From Terriglobia bacterium (GTDB taxonomy: Bacteria; Acidobacteriota; Vicinamibacteria; Vicinamibacterales; CAVVIG01), in assembly GCA_020073005.1 (NCBI GenBank), contig JAIQFX010000011.1, forward strand, positions 1 through 64,000: 64,000 nucleotides of DNA, written 5' to 3'. The notes beneath the pieces were generated by a model, which had not been told where the DNA came from, made no database searches, and saw nothing but the letters and a program-made list of their open reading frames with translations. How positions within the stretch are numbered: the stretch's first letter is position 1; each line of letters starts with the position of its first letter. Shown here one piece after another: positions 21,010 to 48,328 of this stretch. Both the position numbers and the translations under genes were made by a program.

Positions 21010-21010
21010 A

Positions 21011-21098
21011 CTTGAAAGAGAAAAGTGAAAAGAGAAAACTGAGACCGTCTCAGTTTCCCGCTTCACTTTTCAGTTTTCTCTTTTCAGTTTTCAGTTTC
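21011..21098. repeat. Inverted 7-base repeat arrays between the DGQHR gene and rfbB
   Basis: Left arm: CTTGAAA, GAGAAAA, GTGAAAA, GAGAAAA, CTGAGAC (21011-21045). Right arm, opposite orientation: TTTTCAG, TTTTCTC, TTTTCAG, TTTTCAG up to 21098. The arms can pair into a long hairpin around ACCGT. The rfbB start codon follows two bases later with no Shine-Dalgarno. Confidence 0.85.
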
Positions 21099-21100
21099 TG

Positions 21101-31900: not shown

Positions 31901-33202
31901 ATGCGTTCTCTTTTCACTCCCTCTTCTTCTTCGTGTCTTCGTGCCTTCGTGGCAACCGTCAGTGTTGTGGCGCTCGGCGTGCAGCCGCACGCGCAGGTAC
32001 GCCAGACGTCGCAGGACGAGTACACGCTCTACGAGCTGCTCGCGCCCGACACCGCGTCCTTCAAGATCGATTACGAGGTCACCGCGACGACGGCCGGCGC
32101 GACGTCGTTCTGGAATCCGATTCGCAAGGGCAGCGTCGCGAGCGACGAAGCCGTCTACGACATGATGACCGGCGCGCCGTTGAAGTTCGAACAGATCACG
32201 GGCGCGCAGGCGAAAGCGCACGGCCTCGGCAACGCGGATCTCGAGAGCGACTACATCGAAGTCCATCTCGCGCGGCCCGTGCCGCCCGACGGCGGACAGG
32301 CGCGCGTCCGCATCGTCAAGACCTACAAGGACGCCAAGAGTTATTTCCGCAAAGACGATGGCATCGTGTTCGATCGTCCGCTCGGCATCCGTCGCAACTC
32401 CGTCGTGCTGCCGGCGGGTTATCAGTTGACCGACTGCAACGTGCCGTCACAGGTGACGTCCGAACCGGACGGCCGCATTCGCATCAGCTTCATGCATCAG
32501 GCGCCTGGCGCCGCGGCGCTGATCGTCAAGGCGAAACCGGGCGCGCCGACGGGCGACGCGGCGAAACCGCGTCCGCTCACCAGCGCGCGCAGTTGGGAGC
32601 CGCCGCCGTCGCAGGGACCGACCGAGCGCGCGCGCCTGTCCGAGCGCGCGCATCAGGATCGCGACATCGTCTACTTCCTGCAGTCGCCGGAGACGAACGC
32701 GTTCAGCCTCTATCACGACTACACCGAGTCGCGTGAAGGCGTGGACAAGTACTTGAACGTCGTCCGGACCGGAAGCAAGGTCTCGAAGCCGTCCGGGAAG
32801 ATTCTCGACACGGGCGAAGCGTTGAAAGCCGAGATTCTCACCGGCGCCCACATGAAGGCCGCGGGCATCAGCACGGGCGGCGAGCAGGTGGCGCCGGATC
32901 AGGAAGTCGTCGTCACGCACTTTGCGCCGATCAAGAAGGGCCAGTCCGTGCGGCTCCGGTTGTCCGAAACGTACACCGCGCCACAGAGCTACCGCCTCGA
33001 GGGTGACGAGTTCGTCCTCGATCGCAGCCTCGGCCGTCCGCGCAACTCCGTCGTGCTGCCGCGCGGCTGGTATCTGACGTGGCTGTCGATTCCCGCTGTC
33101 GTCCGTCAGACGCCTGATGGCCTCACGCGCATCGACTTCGTGAACGGCCGGCCGGATTCGGTTGAGGTGCTGATCAAAGGCAAGCGGCTCACTGCACGGT
33201 GA
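31901..33202 (+). CDS. Secreted protein with internal duplication, unknown function
   Basis: A 433-residue exported protein made of two similar halves. RIVKTYKDAKSYFRKDDGIV, RPLGIRRNSVVLPAGY in the first half match RLSETYTAPQSYRLEGDEFV, RSLGRPRNSVVLPRGW in the second, each followed by a strand pair (PDGRIRISF and PDGLTRIDF). The linker is Pro/Arg-rich. The signal peptide (residues 1-31) is partly encoded by an 8-base repeat (31930-31953). The 3' end overlaps the cupredoxin gene on the other strand by 14 bases. Confidence 0.78.
   Translation: MRSLFTPSSSSCLRAFVATVSVVALGVQPHAQVRQTSQDEYTLYELLAPDTASFKIDYEVTATTAGATSFWNPIRKGSVASDEAVYDMMTGAPLKFEQITGAQAKAHGLGNADLESDYIEVHLARPVPPDGGQARVRIVKTYKDAKSYFRKDDGIVFDRPLGIRRNSVVLPAGYQLTDCNVPSQVTSEPDGRIRISFMHQAPGAAALIVKAKPGAPTGDAAKPRPLTSARSWEPPPSQGPTERARLSERAHQDRDIVYFLQSPETNAFSLYHDYTESREGVDKYLNVVRTGSKVSKPSGKILDTGEALKAEILTGAHMKAAGISTGGEQVAPDQEVVVTHFAPIKKGQSVRLRLSETYTAPQSYRLEGDEFVLDRSLGRPRNSVVLPRGWYLTWLSIPAVVRQTPDGLTRIDFVNGRPDSVEVLIKGKRLTAR
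31930..31953 (+). repeat. 8-base repeat inside a signal-peptide coding region
   Basis: TTCGTGTC, TTCGTGCC, TTCGTGGC in phase, preceded by a T/C-rich tract from about 31909. It encodes part of the signal sequence (SSCLRAFVATV). Confidence 0.65.
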
Positions 33203-33694: not shown

Positions 33695-34582
33695 CTACTC
33701 GATTCGCACGATGCGGTCGGAGACCTTGGGGAAGCGATCGAAGACGGCGGGATCGTGGCCGGGGACGACGAGGCGCGGGTCGCTCGCGAGCGATCGCATG
33801 CGGTCCTGCGTGCGCAGGTTCGACACCGCGTCGAGCGTCTGCGCGATGGCCTTGTGCGCGTCCATGTTCTCGTAGAGGTACACGTTGTCCGACGCCATCA
33901 CGACCGTGCCCGTGCGCGTCGTCACCGTGACGAACTGCGACTGGAACGTGTGCTTGCCGCCGATGCCGAAGCCGATGCCGGACAGCGACGTCTCGTCGTC
34001 GCCGCGCACGAACGACACCTTGCCCATCGTGTTGCGTCTGACGATTTCCAGCACGTCGTCCGCGTCGATGCCGCCGTGCGTGCGCGCGGACTGCCACGCG
34101 TCGCCCGTGTAGTAGTCGTATTCTTCTTTCTGCAGCCACACGCGCGCCGACGGAAACAAGTCGATGCCGCCCGCATGGTCCCAGTGCATGTGCGACAGGA
34201 AGATGTCCGTCACGTCCGCCGGTTTCAGTCCGAGCGGCGCGATCGCATCGGACGGTGTGATGTAGTCCTTCACCGTGAACTGGCGGAAGTACTGCTCGCG
34301 GTGGAAGCCCGAGTCGACGATCGCGACGCGACCGTCGGCGCCCTTGAGCACCCAGATCATCATGGCGATGTCCATCCGCCGCGCGCGATCGGCGCCGGCG
34401 ATGAGGCTCGACACTGGAAAGTCTGCGAGCGTGGCGAACCTGACCGCGTAGACCTCGTACTTGTCCGCTTCGCCTCGAACAGAGATCGAGAAGGCAGAAA
34501 GAAGAAGGAAGAAGGCAACAGTAAAGCGACGAAGTACTTTCCACTTCACTTCTACCTTCTTCCTTCTGCCTTCTTCCTTCAT
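33695..34582 (-). CDS. Exported metallo-beta-lactamase-fold hydrolase (lactonase-like)
   Basis: A 295-residue enzyme with the HxHxDH zinc motif as SHMHWDHAGG near residue 131, then VMASDN and VVPGHDP later. It resembles N-acyl-homoserine lactonase-type proteins, but the substrate is not determined. The N-terminus is odd: MKEEGRRKKVEVKWKVLRR is a basic n-region and FTVAFFLLLSAFSIS a hydrophobic core, and both are encoded by the two arms of a 7-base inverted repeat. The start overlaps the acyl-CoA ligase stop (ATGA), supporting coupled translation from this codon. Confidence 0.85.
   Translation of the reverse strand: MKEEGRRKKVEVKWKVLRRFTVAFFLLLSAFSISVRGEADKYEVYAVRFATLADFPVSSLIAGADRARRMDIAMMIWVLKGADGRVAIVDSGFHREQYFRQFTVKDYITPSDAIAPLGLKPADVTDIFLSHMHWDHAGGIDLFPSARVWLQKEEYDYYTGDAWQSARTHGGIDADDVLEIVRRNTMGKVSFVRGDDETSLSGIGFGIGGKHTFQSQFVTVTTRTGTVVMASDNVYLYENMDAHKAIAQTLDAVSNLRTQDRMRSLASDPRLVVPGHDPAVFDRFPKVSDRIVRIE
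34489..34582. repeat. Inverted 7-base arrays encoding a signal peptide
   Basis: Plus-strand left arm AGAAGGCAGAAAGAAGAAGG onward to 34519; right arm TACCTTCTTCCTTCTGCCTT onward to 34582, largely the inverse. On the minus strand the A/G-rich arm codes the Lys/Arg n-region and the T/C-rich arm codes the Phe/Leu/Ser core of the hydrolase signal peptide. Confidence 0.8.
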
Positions 34583-36294
34583 GATCTCTCGTCTTTCAGC
34601 GCCCGGCGAAGGACTTTTCCGACCATCGTCTTCGGGAGTTCGTTTCGGAATTCGATCGTCGACGGTACTTTGTACGGCGCCAGCTTGTCACGGCAAAACG
34701 TGCGCAGATCGTGCTCCGTCGCCGTGTGTCCCGCCCGCAGCACGACCCACGCCTTCACGGCCTCGCCTCTCGACGCGTCGGGCACGCCGGTGACGCCGAC
34801 TTCGTCGACCGCGGAGTGCGTCGCCAGCACTTCTTCGATCTCGCGCGGCCAGACCTGGAAGCCGCTCGTCTTGATCAGATCTTTCTTGCGGTCGACGATG
34901 AAGACGTAGCCGTCCTCGTCGAGGTACCCGAGGTCGCCCGTGTGCAGCCACATGCGCGTCCCGCCTTCGGCGTCGTCTGGAACAAGATGGCTGCGCAACA
35001 CGCCCGACGTTTCCTCGGGGCGATTCCAGTAGCCGACCATCAGTTGCGGCGCCGAGATCGCGATCTCTCCGACTTCATTGGCGGCGAGCGCGCGCGTGCC
35101 CTCGTCGGCGTCGAAGATGCGCACGTGCACGTCGGGCACCGGCATCCCGACCGAGCCGAGCTTGTTCGGGCCGCGCACCGGATTGATGCAGCACGCCATC
35201 ATGCCTTCGGTCAGCGAATACCCTTCGACGATGCGTCCGCCGGTCAGCGCTTCGAAGCGCTGCTTCGTGTCGGCGAGCAGCGCGGACGAGCCGGAGAGGC
35301 AAATCTTGATCGACTTGAAATCGACCTTGCCGCGCTGCACGTCCCGATGATGGAGCAGCGCGATGTACATCGTCGGCACGCCGGTGAAGAACGCGGGCTT
35401 GACGCGGCGGATGGTCGCGAGCAGATCGCCGATGTCGCGCGGGTTCGGGACGAGCGCCACGCTGCTGCGCGTGACGAGCGCGTGCGCCTGCGTGCCGACG
35501 TTCGCGTAGACGTGGAACAGCGGCAGCGGCGCGAGGATCACGTCGCCGTCCGGATTGAGCACGGAGGCGGTCCAGGCTTTGACCTGCAGTCCCGCGGCGA
35601 CGTACGCGCCGTGCGTGCCGAGGACGCCTTTCGGCGTGCCGGTCGTGCCGCCGCTCATCAGCAGGACGGCGGGGTCGATGGCTTTCACCTTGCACGGCGG
35701 CGGACGCCGGCCGCGGTTGACGAGCAGCAGATGCGCGAAATCGTGATCGCCTGGCGCGATCGCGACGCGATCGCCGTCGTGCTTTTCGCGGAACAACGTG
35801 AACAGCACGCGAAGCGCCGGCGGGAAGTACTCCTTGATGTTGGTCGCGATGACGCGGCGCACCGGTGTCCGCGGCTGCAGGCGCTTGATGCGCGCGTAGT
35901 AGCGCGTGAGCGTGACGATCGTCTCGACCCCGTGCTCGCGCAGCGGGAGTTCCAGTTCCGGCTCCGTGTAGATCGGATTGAGCGGCGCGACGATGGCGCC
36001 GATCTTCCAGGCGCCGAACTGGGCGATGGAGAACTGCGGGCAGTTCGGCAGCAGCAGGGCGACGCGATCGCCGCGCGTCACGCCGAGCGAGACGAACGCG
36101 GCCGCGCACGCGTCGCTCAGCCGGTCGAGCTCCGCGTACGTGATCGTCGCGCCCTTGAAGAGAAGCGCGGCCCGCTTCGGAAGATCGCGCGCCGCGTCCG
36201 CGAGCTCGTCGACGAGGGTGCGATTCGGGTACGGCGCGAGGCTGTGCGGAACGTCGGGATCGTAGTGCGACAGCCACGGCGCCGCGGCGGGCAT
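34579..36294 (-). CDS. Long-chain acyl-CoA ligase (AMP-binding)
   Basis: A 571-residue ANL-family enzyme that activates fatty acids to acyl-CoA through an acyl-AMP. Motifs: P-loop MSGGTTGTPKGV near residue 212 (usually TSGTTG), GYSLTEG (about 358), the TGDLGYLDEDGYVFIVDRKKDLI hinge (about 458-480) and the C-terminal Lys in PKTMVGKVLRR. Chain length is not readable from sequence, but it looks like FadD. It lies upstream of the metallo-hydrolase on the same strand, sharing an ATGA overlap. Confidence 0.92.
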   Translation of the reverse strand: MPAAAPWLSHYDPDVPHSLAPYPNRTLVDELADAARDLPKRAALLFKGATITYAELDRLSDACAAAFVSLGVTRGDRVALLLPNCPQFSIAQFGAWKIGAIVAPLNPIYTEPELELPLREHGVETIVTLTRYYARIKRLQPRTPVRRVIATNIKEYFPPALRVLFTLFREKHDGDRVAIAPGDHDFAHLLLVNRGRRPPPCKVKAIDPAVLLMSGGTTGTPKGVLGTHGAYVAAGLQVKAWTASVLNPDGDVILAPLPLFHVYANVGTQAHALVTRSSVALVPNPRDIGDLLATIRRVKPAFFTGVPTMYIALLHHRDVQRGKVDFKSIKICLSGSSALLADTKQRFEALTGGRIVEGYSLTEGMMACCINPVRGPNKLGSVGMPVPDVHVRIFDADEGTRALAANEVGEIAISAPQLMVGYWNRPEETSGVLRSHLVPDDAEGGTRMWLHTGDLGYLDEDGYVFIVDRKKDLIKTSGFQVWPREIEEVLATHSAVDEVGVTGVPDASRGEAVKAWVVLRAGHTATEHDLRTFCRDKLAPYKVPSTIEFRNELPKTMVGKVLRRALKDERS

Positions 36295-41108: not shown

Positions 41109-41133
41109 CGTCACGGCCACGTCCACGTACTGA

Positions 41134-41208
41134 ACCACAGAGGACACGGAGGACACGGAGGATGGGTTTGTACTTCTTTCCCTCCGTGTCCTCTGTGTCC
41201 TCCGTGGT
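41134..41208. repeat. Long inverted repeat between argC and argB
   Basis: Left arm ACCACAGAGGACACGGAGGA ending at 41161 and right arm 41181-41208 are 28 bases each and match as inverse copies at 26 positions. Built from 9-base words such as GAGGACACG. The loop is about 19 bases. It lies inside the operon, after the argC stop and before the argB start, and could act as a processing or attenuation hairpin. Confidence 0.85.
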
Positions 41209-41223
41209 CATTCTCTTCGTCCG

Positions 41224-42910: not shown

Positions 42911-44128
42911 ATGGGGCGCATCGTGATCGCCTACTCGGGCGGCCTCGACACGTCCGTGGCCGTGCCCTGGCTCGCCGAGCGGTACGGCGCCGAGATCGTC
43001 GCCGTGACGATGGACCTCGGGCAGGGGGCCGAGCTCGAGGAAGTGCGGGACCGCGCGCTGGCGTCGGGCGCGATCCGCGCCCACGTGCTCGACGTGCGGG
43101 AGGAATTCGCGCGCGATTTCGTCCTGCGCGCGCTCAAGGCCGACGCGCTGTACGAGGACAGATATCCGCTGGCGACCGCGCTCGCCCGGCCGCTCATCGC
43201 CCAGAAGCTGATCGAGATTGCCGAAATCGAACAGGCGACGGCCGTCGCGCACGGGTGCAGCGGCAAGGGCAACGACCAGGTGCGGCTCGAAGTCACGGCG
43301 CGCGCGCTGAATTCCAGCATCCGCATCATCGCGCCGGCGCGGGAATGGGGCATGTCGCGCGCGGAAGAGATCGAGTACGCGCGGCAGCGCAACGTCCCGG
43401 TGCCGGCGACCGTCGAGAGCCCGTACAGCACGGATTTCAATCTCTGGGGCCGGGCCGTCGACTGCGGCGCGCTCGAGGATCCCTGGCACGAGCCGCCCGA
43501 AGACATCTACACGCTGACCAAATCTCCGCGGGAATGCCCGGACGAACCGGCCTACGTCGAGGTCTCCTTCGAGCGCGGCGTCCCGACGGCGATCAACGGG
43601 GTCGCGATGCCGATGCTCGATCTGATCGCCAGCCTCGGCACCATCGCCGGCGCGAACGGCGTCGGGCGCATCGATCTGATCGAGAACCGGCTCGTCGGCA
43701 TCAAGTCGCGCGAAGTCTACGAGGCGCCCGCGGCCGTCGTCCTGCACGCGGCGCACGAAGAACTGCAGCGCCTGGTCACCACGGCGGATCTCGATCGCCT
43801 CTGCCGCGACATCTCCCAGAAGTACGCCGACCTCGTCTACAACGGCCTCTGGTTCACGCCGACGCGTGAAGCGATGGACGCGTTCGTCGACACGGTGCAG
43901 GAGCGCGTGACCGGCGTCATCCGCCTGAAGCTCTTCAAAGGCGACTGCCGGATCGTCGGCCGCAAGTCGCCGTTCGGGCTCTACGATCAGTCGCTGGCCA
44001 CGCACGACGCGGGCGACATGTTCGATCACGCGGCAACGGCCGGCTTCATCAAGATCTGGGGATTGCCGGTCGAAAGCACCGCCAAGAAGGCGCCAAAGAA
44101 ACGAAAGTCGTTGGTCGTTAGTCGTTAG
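42911..44128 (+). CDS. argG: Argininosuccinate synthase
   Basis: A 405-residue ATP enzyme joining citrulline and aspartate. PP-loop SGGLDTS at 9-15 and further family segments AHGCSGKGNDQVR, YSTDFNLWGRAVDCG and the late YNGLWFTP. ATG 42911 has AAGGA seven bases upstream, so it is preferred over 42872. The last residues (KKAPKKRKSLVVSR) are Lys/Arg-rich and end inside a 7-base repeat that supplies the stop codon. Confidence 0.96.
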   Translation: MGRIVIAYSGGLDTSVAVPWLAERYGAEIVAVTMDLGQGAELEEVRDRALASGAIRAHVLDVREEFARDFVLRALKADALYEDRYPLATALARPLIAQKLIEIAEIEQATAVAHGCSGKGNDQVRLEVTARALNSSIRIIAPAREWGMSRAEEIEYARQRNVPVPATVESPYSTDFNLWGRAVDCGALEDPWHEPPEDIYTLTKSPRECPDEPAYVEVSFERGVPTAINGVAMPMLDLIASLGTIAGANGVGRIDLIENRLVGIKSREVYEAPAAVVLHAAHEELQRLVTTADLDRLCRDISQKYADLVYNGLWFTPTREAMDAFVDTVQERVTGVIRLKLFKGDCRIVGRKSPFGLYDQSLATHDAGDMFDHAATAGFIKIWGLPVESTAKKAPKKRKSLVVSR

Positions 44129-44203
44129 TCGTTTGTCACGATCAACCGCCGCGACGCATCCCTGAGCCGACCAATGACCAATGACCCACGACTAACGACC
44201 ACT
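44107..44203. repeat. Inverted 7-base arrays spanning the argG end and argH start
   Basis: Left arm TCGTTGG, TCGTTAG, TCGTTAG, TCGTTTG (about 44108-44136) contains the argG stop. Right arm 44168-44203 holds CCAATGA, CCAATGA, CCCACGA, CTAACGA, CCACTTT, and its first ATG is the argH start. The arms are partial inverse copies. Confidence 0.82.
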
Positions 44204-45571
44204 TTGTGGTCCGGAAGATTCGATACGGCGCCCGATGCGGCGGCGTTCGAGTTTGGCGCGTCGTTCCGGTTCGACCGGCGCTTGTTCGAAGACGACGTCA
44301 CGGGCAGTCTCGCGTGGGCGCGGGCGCTGGCGAAGGCCGGCGTGCTCTCGGCGGACGAGGCTCGTCAGATTGCGGACGCGCTGACCGCGATGCTCGAGCG
44401 CGGCCGCGCCGATGCGTCATTCGTCGACGGCCCGGACGAGGACGTCCACAGCTTCGTCGAGCGCCTTCTTGTCGAGCGGCTCGGCGACGCCGGACGCCGG
44501 TTGCACACCGGCCGCTCGCGCAACGAACAGGTCTCGCTGGACCTGCGACTCTATTTGCGGCGTCGCATTCCCGCGCTGCAGCACGCGATCGCGGGCGTCG
44601 TCGACGCGCTGGCCGCGCAGGCCGCGGCGGCGGGCGACGCGCTGATGCCGTCGTTCACGCATTTCCGTCCGGCGCAGCCGGTCCTCGTCGCGCACTTCTT
44701 TCTCTCGCACGCGGCGCCGCTGCGGCGCGACTTCGCGCGGCTCGCCGCCGCGCGTGACGAAGCCGACGCGCTGCCGCTCGGCTCCGGCGCGATCGCGGGC
44801 ACGGCCTACGCGGTCGACGTCAACGCGCTCGCCGCCGATCTCGGCTTCGCGCGCATTGTCGACAACAGCATGGACGCGTCGTCGGATCGCGACTTCGCGG
44901 CGACCTTTCTCTATGCGTGCGCCATGACGATGGTGCATCTGAGCCGGATGGCGGAGGACTTCATCATCTTCTGCGGCGACGAGCATCGGTTCTTCGAGCT
45001 GTCCGACGCGCTCAGCACCGGCAGCAGCATGATGCCGCAGAAGAAGAATCCCGATCCGCTGGAGCTCGTGCGCGGCAAGTCCGGCCGCGCGATCGGCCAT
45101 CTCATGGGGCTCCTGACGACGATCAAAGGTCTGCCGACGGGGTACAACAAGGATCTGCAGGAAGACAAAGAAGCCGTATTCGGGGCCGAAGATACGCTCG
45201 CCGGTTGCCTCGCCGTCGTGCGTTCGGTCGTCCACGGCTTGACGCTCAATCGCGAGGCCGCCGCCTCGGCGGCGTCGGGCCTGCTGCTCGCGACCGACGT
45301 CGCCGATTATCTCGTCGGCCGCGGCGTCCCGTTCCGCCGCGCGCATGAAATCGTCGGCGCGCTCGTGCGCAAGCTTCACGGCGAGCGGCGCGACTTCGAA
45401 TCGATGACATTCGCTGAGTGGCGCGCGTCGAGCGACCTCTTCGAGCCCGACGTCGTCGCGCGCGTCAAGCCCGGCGCCTCCGTGGCGGCGAAGCGGACGC
45501 CGCAATCGACCGCGCCGGGGGCCGTGGCGGCGCGGCTGGCCGACGTCCGGCAGTGGCTCGCGTCGCTCTAG
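44174..45571 (+). CDS. argH: Argininosuccinate lyase
   Basis: A 465-residue fumarase-fold enzyme, last step of arginine synthesis. Signature GSSMMPQKKNP at 283-293, TGRSRN at 112-117 and THFRPAQP with the active His near 163. The first ten residues (MTNDPRLTTT) are encoded by a 7-base repeat, and there is no ribosome-binding site before ATG 44174; the conserved part starts at LWSGRF. Follows argG on the same strand. Confidence 0.95.
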   Translation: MTNDPRLTTTLWSGRFDTAPDAAAFEFGASFRFDRRLFEDDVTGSLAWARALAKAGVLSADEARQIADALTAMLERGRADASFVDGPDEDVHSFVERLLVERLGDAGRRLHTGRSRNEQVSLDLRLYLRRRIPALQHAIAGVVDALAAQAAAAGDALMPSFTHFRPAQPVLVAHFFLSHAAPLRRDFARLAAARDEADALPLGSGAIAGTAYAVDVNALAADLGFARIVDNSMDASSDRDFAATFLYACAMTMVHLSRMAEDFIIFCGDEHRFFELSDALSTGSSMMPQKKNPDPLELVRGKSGRAIGHLMGLLTTIKGLPTGYNKDLQEDKEAVFGAEDTLAGCLAVVRSVVHGLTLNREAAASAASGLLLATDVADYLVGRGVPFRRAHEIVGALVRKLHGERRDFESMTFAEWRASSDLFEPDVVARVKPGASVAAKRTPQSTAPGAVAARLADVRQWLASL

Positions 45572-45671: not shown

Positions 45672-46397
45672 ATGCAACAGCGCCAGCTTCGCCTTGGTGA
45701 CGTTCTGGACGACTACTGTCCGCGCGAGCGGCGCGTGACGAATCACGCCGTGGTGGCGATGATCGGCGACGAGGTCAAGCAGACCCGCTGCACCGCGTGC
45801 GAAGCCGAACACGAGTACAAGCACGCGAAAGTGCCGCGGCAGCGGCGCAAGACGGAGACGCCGGCCGCGCTCTACGCGCAGGTGCTGGCGGGCGCTCCCA
45901 AGAAAGTCACGCACGAGACCCCGGCGCCACCGAGCGCCGGTCCGGTCGCCGCCTCGGACGATATCGCGCCGATCGCCGACGAGCCGAATGACGAGGCGGC
46001 GACCGACGTGGCCGCTGCCGCCGGGCCGCCTGTGATCGCGGCCGATCGCGCCGAAGGCGACGCCGACGAAGAAGGTCCGGTGCATCGGCCGCTGATTCGC
46101 GCGTCGCTTCCGAGGATCGAAGGGCAGCAGCCTCCCGCGCGACCCATTCCCGAGTTCACCGTGCGCCAGCCCGGCGGCCGCCAGAACAGATTCCATCCGC
46201 GCCATCAGCGCGGCGGCGGACAGCAGGGGCAGTTCGGACAGCGGTTCTCCGGCGATCGCTCGAACGGCAACAACTTCGGCGGCCCGCCGCGCGGCGGCGG
46301 CATGCGGCAGGGAGGCGGCCGTCCGCCGCAAGGCCACATGTCGTCGCGCCCCCCGCGTCATCGAGGTGGCGGAGGAGGGCACAAAAGGTCAAAGTGA
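45672..46397 (+). CDS. Zinc-ribbon / RGG-rich protein of unknown function
   Basis: A 241-residue, probably nucleic-acid-binding protein. The N-terminal 50 residues hold DYCPRERRVTNHAVVAMIGD and TRCTACEAEHEYKH, with Cys and His in a zinc-finger-like spacing. The middle is Ala/Pro/Glu-rich and disordered. The C-terminus (about 165-241) is dominated by RGG, GGR and Gln/Gly repeats (RHQRGGGQQGQFGQ, RGGGMRQGGGRPP, RHRGGGGGHKRSK). ATG 45672 with GGAG upstream. I know no studied member; an RNA-binding role is an inference from composition. Confidence 0.75.
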   Translation: MQQRQLRLGDVLDDYCPRERRVTNHAVVAMIGDEVKQTRCTACEAEHEYKHAKVPRQRRKTETPAALYAQVLAGAPKKVTHETPAPPSAGPVAASDDIAPIADEPNDEAATDVAAAAGPPVIAADRAEGDADEEGPVHRPLIRASLPRIEGQQPPARPIPEFTVRQPGGRQNRFHPRHQRGGGQQGQFGQRFSGDRSNGNNFGGPPRGGGMRQGGGRPPQGHMSSRPPRHRGGGGGHKRSK

Positions 46398-46480
46398 GAA
46401 GTTAGAAGTGAAAAGTAAGAAGGCCGGACTTTCCACTTTCCACTTTACTTTTCTGTTTTCACTTTTCAGTTTTCACTTTT
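46388..46480. repeat. Inverted 7-base arrays before fabI
   Basis: Left part GTGAGAA, GTTAGAA, GTGAAAA, GTAAGAA; then GGCCGGA; right part CTTTCCA, CTTTCCA, CTTTACT, TTTCTGT and TTTCACT-type units up to the fabI ATG at 46482. The stop codon of the preceding gene also lies in it. No ribosome-binding site precedes fabI. Confidence 0.82.
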
Positions 46481-46481
46481 C

Positions 46482-47255
46482 ATGTCCATCCTCTCAGGCA
46501 AACACGGTCTCATCGTCGGTGTCGCCAACAAGCGGTCGATCTCGTGGGCGATCGCGCAGGCCGCGGCGGCCGCGGGCGCGCGTCTCGCGCTGACGTATCC
46601 GAGCGAGCGGCTCGAAGAGAACGTCCGCGAGCTGGCGGCGACGCTCGAGCACCCGGTCCTCGCGCCGTGCGACGTCGGCAGCGATCAGCAGATCGCCGAT
46701 CTCGCGACGACGCTCGACCGCGAGTTCGGCGGCCTCGATTTCCTGGTGCACGGCGCCGGGTTCGCCCCGGCCGACGCGCTGCACAATCCGTTCGTCGACA
46801 CATCGCGCGAGAGCTTCCGGATCGCGCTCGACATCAGCGCGTACTCGCTCATTGGATTGACGCGGGCGATGATGCCGTTGATGGAGAAGCGCGGCGGCGG
46901 CAGCGTGCTGACGCTGACGTATCTCGGCAGCCAGCGCGTGTTCCCGAACTACAACGTGATGGGCGTGGCGAAAGCCGCGCTCGAATCGTCGGTCCGGTAC
47001 CTGGCGAGCGAGCTGGGCCCGAAGAACGTCCGCGTGAACGCCATCTCGGCCGGCGCGATCAAGACGCTGGCCGCGTCGGGCATCGGCGGGTTCTCGACGA
47101 TCCTGCAGGTCTATCGCGATCGCGCGCCGCTGCGGCGCAGCGTCGAAGGCGCGGAGGTCGCCGACGCGGCGATCTTCCTGCTCAGCCCGGCGTCGCGCGC
47201 GGTCACCGGCGAAATCCTCATGGTGGACTCCGGCTTCCACGCGATGGGCCTCTAG
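46482..47255 (+). CDS. fabI: Enoyl-ACP reductase (FabI type)
   Basis: A 257-residue SDR that reduces trans-2-enoyl-ACP in fatty-acid elongation. GVANKRSISWAIA at 13-25 is the FabI-type NADH loop. Y147, Y157 and K164 match the FabI catalytic set (YLGSQRVFPNYNVMGVAK), and the C-terminal VTGEILMVDSGFHAMG is typical. ATG 46482 fits the family but lies at the end of a T-rich 7-base repeat with no Shine-Dalgarno. Confidence 0.94.
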   Translation: MSILSGKHGLIVGVANKRSISWAIAQAAAAAGARLALTYPSERLEENVRELAATLEHPVLAPCDVGSDQQIADLATTLDREFGGLDFLVHGAGFAPADALHNPFVDTSRESFRIALDISAYSLIGLTRAMMPLMEKRGGGSVLTLTYLGSQRVFPNYNVMGVAKAALESSVRYLASELGPKNVRVNAISAGAIKTLAASGIGGFSTILQVYRDRAPLRRSVEGAEVADAAIFLLSPASRAVTGEILMVDSGFHAMGL

Positions 47256-47989: not shown

Positions 47990-48226
47990 ATGGCTCTTCG
48001 CCGCGTCCGCGGCGCCTTGCTGCGGCTGGCCCGGCGCCGCCCGATGGCGATCATCGCCGGGCTCGCGCTCGCCGCGCCGGCGGCGTGGCTGGAATTCGGC
48101 GCGGGGATCGATGCGTGGTGGGCCAACGGCCTGGCGCTCGTGATGGGCGCGACGGGGGTGGCCCTGATGTGGACTGGCCTGACGGGGTTGAGAGCTGACT
48201 GGGTGGACGAGGAAACTGAAAACTGA
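47990..48226 (+). CDS. Small membrane protein of unknown function
   Basis: 78 residues from ATG 47990 (an upstream in-frame ATG at 47969 is also possible). Basic N-terminus (ALRRVRGALLRLARRRP), then two hydrophobic stretches (about 19-40 and 46-68). The last residues (DEETEN) and the stop fall at the edge of a 7-base repeat. It is divergent from the FNR-type gene. Confidence 0.55.
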   Translation: MALRRVRGALLRLARRRPMAIIAGLALAAPAAWLEFGAGIDAWWANGLALVMGATGVALMWTGLTGLRADWVDEETEN

Positions 48227-48328
48227 AAAGAGAAAACTGAAAAGTGAAGCTGAAAGACGCACGACAGGAGTGCTGTCTGAACTTTTTTCTTTTTTCTTTT
48301 CTCTTTTCTCTTTTCAGTTTTCAGTTTC
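48212..48328. repeat. Inverted 7-base arrays between convergent genes
   Basis: Left arm CTGAAAA, CTGAAAA, GAGAAAA, CTGAAAA, GTGAAGC (48216-48250). Right arm TTTTTTC, TTTTTTC, TTTTCTC, TTTTCTC, TTTTCAG, TTTTCAG (about 48282-48323), then the stop of the HD-GYP gene at 48327. A long hairpin with T-rich flank; it could end transcription from the plus-strand gene. Confidence 0.85.

Follow-up and report, generated by a model that had tools for sequence, protein, structure and literature searches.

A dispersed inverted heptamer array as the probable source of a rewritten signal peptide in an acidobacterial MBL-fold hydrolase gene

How does a short tandem repeat come to spell the signal peptide of an enzyme, and did it bring export to that enzyme or merely overwrite a signal that was there before? 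The question is raised by an MBL-fold hydrolase gene of an uncultured soil acidobacterium (genome G000, 5.86 Mb in 179 contigs). The gene lies in the window, that is, the whole stretch of 64,000 nucleotides from contig C29 that was analysed. Its minus-strand reading frame, MKEEGRRKKVEVKWKVLRRFTVAFFLLLSAFSISVRGEADKYEV, yields a product of 295 residues with a Lactamase_B domain and the HxHxDH motif, and the closest solved structure is 8x78. The similarity to AHL lactonases is weak and stays under every curated cut-off, the named-lactonase NCBIfam equivalog for AttM giving 58.7 bits against a cut-off of 390. Judged by its dN/dS of 0.19 against a 78% orthologue, the gene is plainly under purifying selection and should be functional. 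It directly follows an AMP-binding ligase, the TGA stop of which overlaps ATG 34582 as ATGA, and the ligase end also precedes the MBL gene in five other genomes (G017, G019, G004, G001, and G002). The features discussed here are collected in Table 1.

Table 1. Positions of the features in the window (first nine lines) and of three further genes on other contigs
Feature	Position	Strand	Basis or remark
Complete inverted heptamer hairpin	34481..34589	none	Repeat and fold analysis
Purine arm, AGGAAGAAGGCAGAAGGAAGAAGGTAGAA	34550..34578	minus	With GTG start, 5'UTR and SD-like; with ATG start, KEEGRRKKVE
Loop and inner arm ends, coding KWKVLRRFTVA (basic n-region)	34516..34546	minus	Sequence
Pyrimidine arm, coding FFLLLSAF (hydrophobic core)	34489..34515	minus	ORF and TRF
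MBL-fold (AHL-lactonase-like) hydrolase gene, longest reading from ATG 34582	33695..34582	minus	ORF; Pfam Lactamase_B 6.9e-17; HMHWDH motif; dN/dS 0.19
MBL gene from in-frame GTG, VKWKVLRRFTVAFFLLLSAFSISVRGEADKYEV... (preferred start)	33695..34549	minus	29 nt from upstream TGA to GTGAAG; same layout at other loci
Candidate GTG start codon within AAGTGAA-type heptamer unit	34547..34549	minus	Sequence and locus comparison
AMP-binding ligase	34579..36294	minus	Pfam AMP-binding and AMP-binding_C; TGA stop touches array
RGEA, conserved c-region; probable cleavage A39/D40 before DKYEVY; beyond period-7 arm	34466..34477	minus	Alignment with G017
VWA protein, VKSGESSVFSFLFSLLTFSSALLAQQ	C18:77824		TTTTCAG units
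Diguanylate cyclase (polytopic GGDEF protein)	C106:111966		Array-written signal
Secretin-like protein, MRVRRAGCWVLSAVLGAGCVVLGADGSVALAQ	C106:64011		GGTGCTG units

The repeat at the gene junction is an inverted one, with arms of 46 nt (34481-34526 and 34544-34589) that are 80% complementary and separated by a spacer of 17 nt. Both arms have a period of seven in TRF, with AGAAGGA repeated 3.9 times at 34489-34515 and CTTCCTT 5.1 times at 34544-34580. The hairpin is far stronger than expected by chance, as its RNA fold reaches -70.8 kcal/mol and none of 200 shuffles was as good (z -6.6). In Rfam, all matches to miRNA and snoRNA models fell far under the gathering scores and were read as a chance likeness to a long hairpin. 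According to the initial annotation, the A/G-rich arm encodes the basic n-region and the T/C-rich arm the hydrophobic core. The latter is borne out by the minus-strand reading and the period-7 arms, FFLLLSAF occupying codons 24-31 (34513-34490) within the T/C arm. The former holds in the ATG reading, in which the A/G arm encodes KEEGRRKKVEVKWK, but translation of this arm is doubtful, the likelier start being GTG 34549 at its inner end. Signal peptides were called by rules of hydrophobicity and charge instead of a trained predictor. By this heuristic, a basic stretch is followed, within about 40 residues, by an 11-residue stretch of mean Kyte-Doolittle value 2.39, in agreement with the description of a working-looking Sec signal. 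The candidate small residues at -3 and -1 lie in GEA|DK, which aligns with AEA|DK of G017. The T/C arm would supply the core of this plausible, predicted signal peptide.

The array is one of many. Arrays were surveyed in 2.0 of the 5.86 Mb (one third of the genome), using gene calls from a home-made codon-usage finder, and the genomes compared are metagenome assemblies. In 974 kb, 73 period-7 arrays were counted against one in a Markov-3 resample and at most 13 for any other base period. In the 2.0 Mb, 178 strong period-7 arrays were found, whereas period 9, the runner-up, gave 32; periods 14 and 21 (98 and 41 arrays) are harmonics of seven. Overall, about 92 heptamer arrays are present in 974 kb, a density of about 90 per Mb, and they fall into some ten unit families, including GAAGGMA, TTTTCAS, YAACGAC, AGCCACC, TCAGCTN, ATTCYTA, GAACCCT, ATTGCGG, and GGTGCTG. 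Most lie 0-15 nt from stops or starts, often beginning within that distance past a stop or finishing right before a start codon, and 101 of 237 have an inverted partner. The GAAGGMA pattern, with up to three mismatches, gave 160 overlapping matches against 81 in the control, 19 of them exact and spread over many contigs. One array in the window, of GACCAAT heptamers (44169-44199), supplies the ATG and the first residues (MTNDPRLTTT) of the gene at 44174-45571.

Comparison with G001, a genome of the same genus, reveals arrays at the same sites with other unit numbers and sequences, both arms being altered together. Between genes of the window, inverted heptamer hairpins at 21010-21100, 46392-46482, 48209-48327, and 44106-44201 are preserved in both G000 and G001, although their two arms have changed jointly. 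Beyond the window (locus L114), a GAAGGMA hairpin at C29:100570-100653 is replaced by a GTGAAAA hairpin in G001, a swap of family. At C29:102596-102660 of the same locus, about 48 nt of ATTCCTA array separate a stop from a start, next to TAATT; this array is cleanly absent from G001 and is apparently a recent gain (or loss). Since the same sites in G001 show changed units, a swapped family or no array, the arrays turn over quickly.

Whether a once cytosolic enzyme owes its export to the hairpin, a route that the initial annotation had suggested, can be judged from the orthologues. Homologues at about 35% identity, from proteobacteria, actinobacteria, and G006, are indeed without signal peptides. 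However, the orthologues at 44-79% identity in Acidobacteriota, which carry labels such as Acidobacteria gp6 where named, have ordinary signal peptides of their own, unrelated in sequence and with no heptamer hairpin inside. Those at 74-79% identity, in four other genera, sit at the corresponding position behind the ligase (the G017 signal, for instance, is MKRTSIVLLVFVWCAIVLAEADKYEVY), and the remoter ones likewise have signal peptides. In a tree of 47 proteins, an Acidobacteriota-centred clade of 15 rows is of the exported type except for one borderline gemmatimonad row, the other rows lack a signal, and the split is fully supported. The present gene sits deep within the exported clade, a position that contradicts an origin of its export in the hairpin. 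Moreover, the c-region GEA before DKYEVY is conserved and lies beyond the period-7 arm. Because close orthologues already have unrelated signal peptides and the c-region is outside the array, an export gain at this gene is most unlikely, and the array would have lengthened and rewritten a pre-existing signal without creating export. In both same-genus genomes, G001 and G002, the MBL gene is broken (L012 and L013), and no close relative has the array within an intact copy. Since ATGAAGGAAG(AAG) is the point at which the remnants meet the start region, the array, or its first unit, is probably older than the divergence from these genomes. At the same junction, G019 and G011 (L003 and L005) have other tandem arrays, one AGGCAGGAT-like and one of the 9-mer GGCGGGTCA, which suggests a recurrent insertion site.

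Two further views concern the nature of the repeat itself. The T/C stretch might be an ordinary codon-biased hydrophobic core, given that F, L, and S codons are pyrimidine-rich and that the arm sits at the core position of the orthologues, with the purine arm arising by local inverted copying. Codon use does not produce a period of seven in both arms, however, and GAAGGMA heptamers occur at many unrelated sites, often as inverted pairs, which makes this origin improbable. Hardly better placed is the idea of a phase-variation switch, in which gain or loss of a 7-nt unit would shift the frame and so switch the exported enzyme between on and off states. In its favour, a unit of seven does not divide by three, unit counts differ between species, the broken MBL genes of G001 and G002 have their joints in the array remnant, and heptamer repeats are described in a phase-variation study (PMC8262952). 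Such switches are marked by long, near-perfect, slippable repeats, whereas each arm here has only three to five imperfect units. Furthermore, in the diguanylate cyclase of Table 1 the part from GTG to AQ measures 84, 93, and 84 nt in G000, G001, and G002, and its indels, being multiples of three, point to selection against frameshifts.

Dispersal of inverted heptamers into an existing signal, the explanation preferred here, accommodates either of two start codons. Exactly 29 nt of purine arm separate the ligase stop from the in-frame GTG AAG. The same layout is found at the diguanylate cyclase of G000, G001, and G002 and at other loci. Two other array-led genes follow the same plan, in which a stop or gene end is succeeded by a purine arm, GTG AAR, a loop, and a pyrimidine arm that forms the hydrophobic core. 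If the start is instead ATG 34582, the entire hairpin is coding and the signal has 39 residues with a long KEEGRRKKVEVKWKVLRR n-region, a variant that is equally compatible with rewriting. The ATGA overlap with the ligase stop favours this start, G017 begins at the equivalent GTGA, and ATGAAGGAAG is retained in G001 and G002. Against it, GTG 34549 has AGAAGG five bases upstream together with the spacing and the GTGAAR start of other array-signal genes, and three acidic residues would be unusual in so long an n-region. By analogy with these other genes, GTG 34549 is in our judgement the likelier start, ATG 34582 being a tentative but serious alternative. The purine arm is then probably for the most part a 5'UTR ending in the GTG start, and the signal peptide would be VKWKVLRRFTVAFFLLLSAFSISVRGEA. 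Because both candidate starts sit within a very stable hairpin, initiation is probably coupled to the ligase and would rely on ribosomes that have completed that gene.

The suitability of heptamers for coding follows from their length. As seven is not a multiple of three, three units make seven codons in all frames, and the peptide encoded by a strand is the same in each of them. The following are all read without a stop: FLLPSSF from (TTCCTTC)n, CLLPSAF from (TGCCTTC)n, EGRRKKE from (GAAGGAA)n, FSLFSFL from another T/C-rich strand, and GAGCWVL from GGTGCTG. Purine strands of T/C-rich heptamers encode basic or acidic residues. The proposal that inverse repeats of purine-rich 7-mers yield a signal by chance of the code agrees with these frame-independent, stop-free peptides and with the recurrence at other genes described below. 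Owing to this property, an array beside a start may slide into the coding region and still provide a usable signal, if the net length stays in frame.

The history that we consider probable is that a dispersed inverted heptamer array rewrote the existing signal peptide of the MBL gene. A paired inverted array of the GAAGGMA type, a copy of the genome-wide family, would have come to occupy the ligase/MBL junction. The usual place of the arrays is the interval from a stop to the next start; where the two genes abut, as here, the array would extend into the signal-coding part. It may have been tolerated because signal peptides accept nearly any basic-then-hydrophobic sequence and because T/C-rich heptamers give a stop-free peptide rich in F, L, S, and A in every frame. 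The ancestral signal would have been replaced, with the c-region and the mature protein unchanged. The purine arm, from the ligase stop to GTG 34549, would remain mostly untranslated, and reading would proceed from GTG AAG through the loop into the pyrimidine arm. Fixation would reflect tolerance and not adaptation.

The same event appears to have occurred elsewhere. Within the 2.0 Mb, heuristic calls identified array-written signal peptides in three further genes, the VWA, diguanylate cyclase, and secretin-like genes of Table 1, involving two other heptamer families. The secretin-like gene also has array-written signals in G001 and G004, and other genera have short plain ones running from the same MEWV-like start to AQ. 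In the diguanylate cyclase of G000, G001, and G002, alike peptide cores are kept though the heptamers change, and the upstream arm, of 30, 29, and 37 nt, shows no coding pattern. Other families are used by the same gene in G017 (GAAGTWC units) and G007 (TTCTCAG units). Overall, six related genomes have the N-terminal segment, and five of these write it with arrays, which belong to three families; in the sixth, G022, no recognisable array was found in the segment. In the cyclase tree the six segment-bearing genomes form one group (94/91). Three further family members, whose proteins begin directly at the following membrane helix, fall outside it, and the outgroups are mixed. The series suggests that arrays may be able to add signals. 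The route to export that the initial annotation envisaged, which fails at the MBL gene, is possible at the cyclase, where the segment may have been gained by array, loss in the sister clade being an alternative. A bolder reading is that paired arrays act as a portable start-and-signal cassette, with a purine-arm leader, a GTG-AAR start, and a pyrimidine-arm core, which added export or membrane signals to genes lacking them. We regard this as doubtful, with the cyclase as its best candidate.

Enrichment of arrays at signal peptides was not shown, 6 of 13 array-bearing N-termini being signal-like against 510 of 1524 without arrays (Fisher p = 0.38). Of these six, the array lies past the signal peptide in one and is confined to its very beginning in another. 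The arrays invade N-termini generally. A second exported-looking protein in the window, MRSLFTPSSSSCLRAFVATVSVVALGVQPHAQ (31901-33202, plus strand), has an octamer array, TCTTCGTG in three copies at 31928-31951, in its signal-peptide region.

Repetitive DNA inside or beside genes is represented by several known systems. Rickettsia palindromic elements are scattered palindromic sequences that genes tolerate as in-frame insertions, but they form one longer family of internal insertions with no heptamer structure. Paired tandem 7-9-mer sites, including GGGACCG heptamers, are presented in passages on Geobacter metallireducens as classes 1-3 of 'global regulator binding sites' (PMC2700814). They resemble the present arrays in their tandem units, inverted pairs, many copies, and mostly intergenic but partly genic positions; their units differ, and those passages do not describe signal-peptide coding. 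In the window, an inverted 9-mer array at 41130-41210, CACGGAGGA / TCCTCCGTG, resembles the class 2 sites. TAACTGA heptamer arrays of Beggiatoaceae, cyanobacteria, and Bacteroidetes also finish a few bases before start codons, and some are translated, one near a permease start; unlike the present arrays, they have a single fixed unit that is nearly always direct, and they rarely code because forward repeats contain stops in all frames (PMC4679880). The arrays of this genome share with both kinds the 7-base units, the many copies at gene edges, and the frequent inverted pairs, but GAAGGMA is not identical to the published TAACTGA, MTYCTGA or GGGACCG. G-rich heptamers of Xanthomonas and Nostoc likewise lie near stop and start codons and vary among close relatives at the same sites, though they are of the G-quadruplex type and have no link to export signals (PMC4692102). 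Borg tandem repeats evolve fast and have been co-opted as protein segments, with an enrichment of signal peptides among the proteins concerned; however, their units in ORFs are multiples of three and form disordered regions, not signal peptides (PMC9879509). In the open-access literature searched, no description of heptamer arrays that spell signal peptides was found.

Plentiful heptamer arrays between genes are a known feature, though one of unsettled function. In the present case they repeatedly supply coding sequence for signal peptides, which tolerate random sequence better than any other part of a protein. For gene finding, this carries a warning, as many start codons in the genome lie inside or beside heptamer arrays. 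Where the same gene carries different repeat families in different species, a natural series is available for studying how non-coding repeats turn into functional protein and how signal peptides arise or are exchanged.
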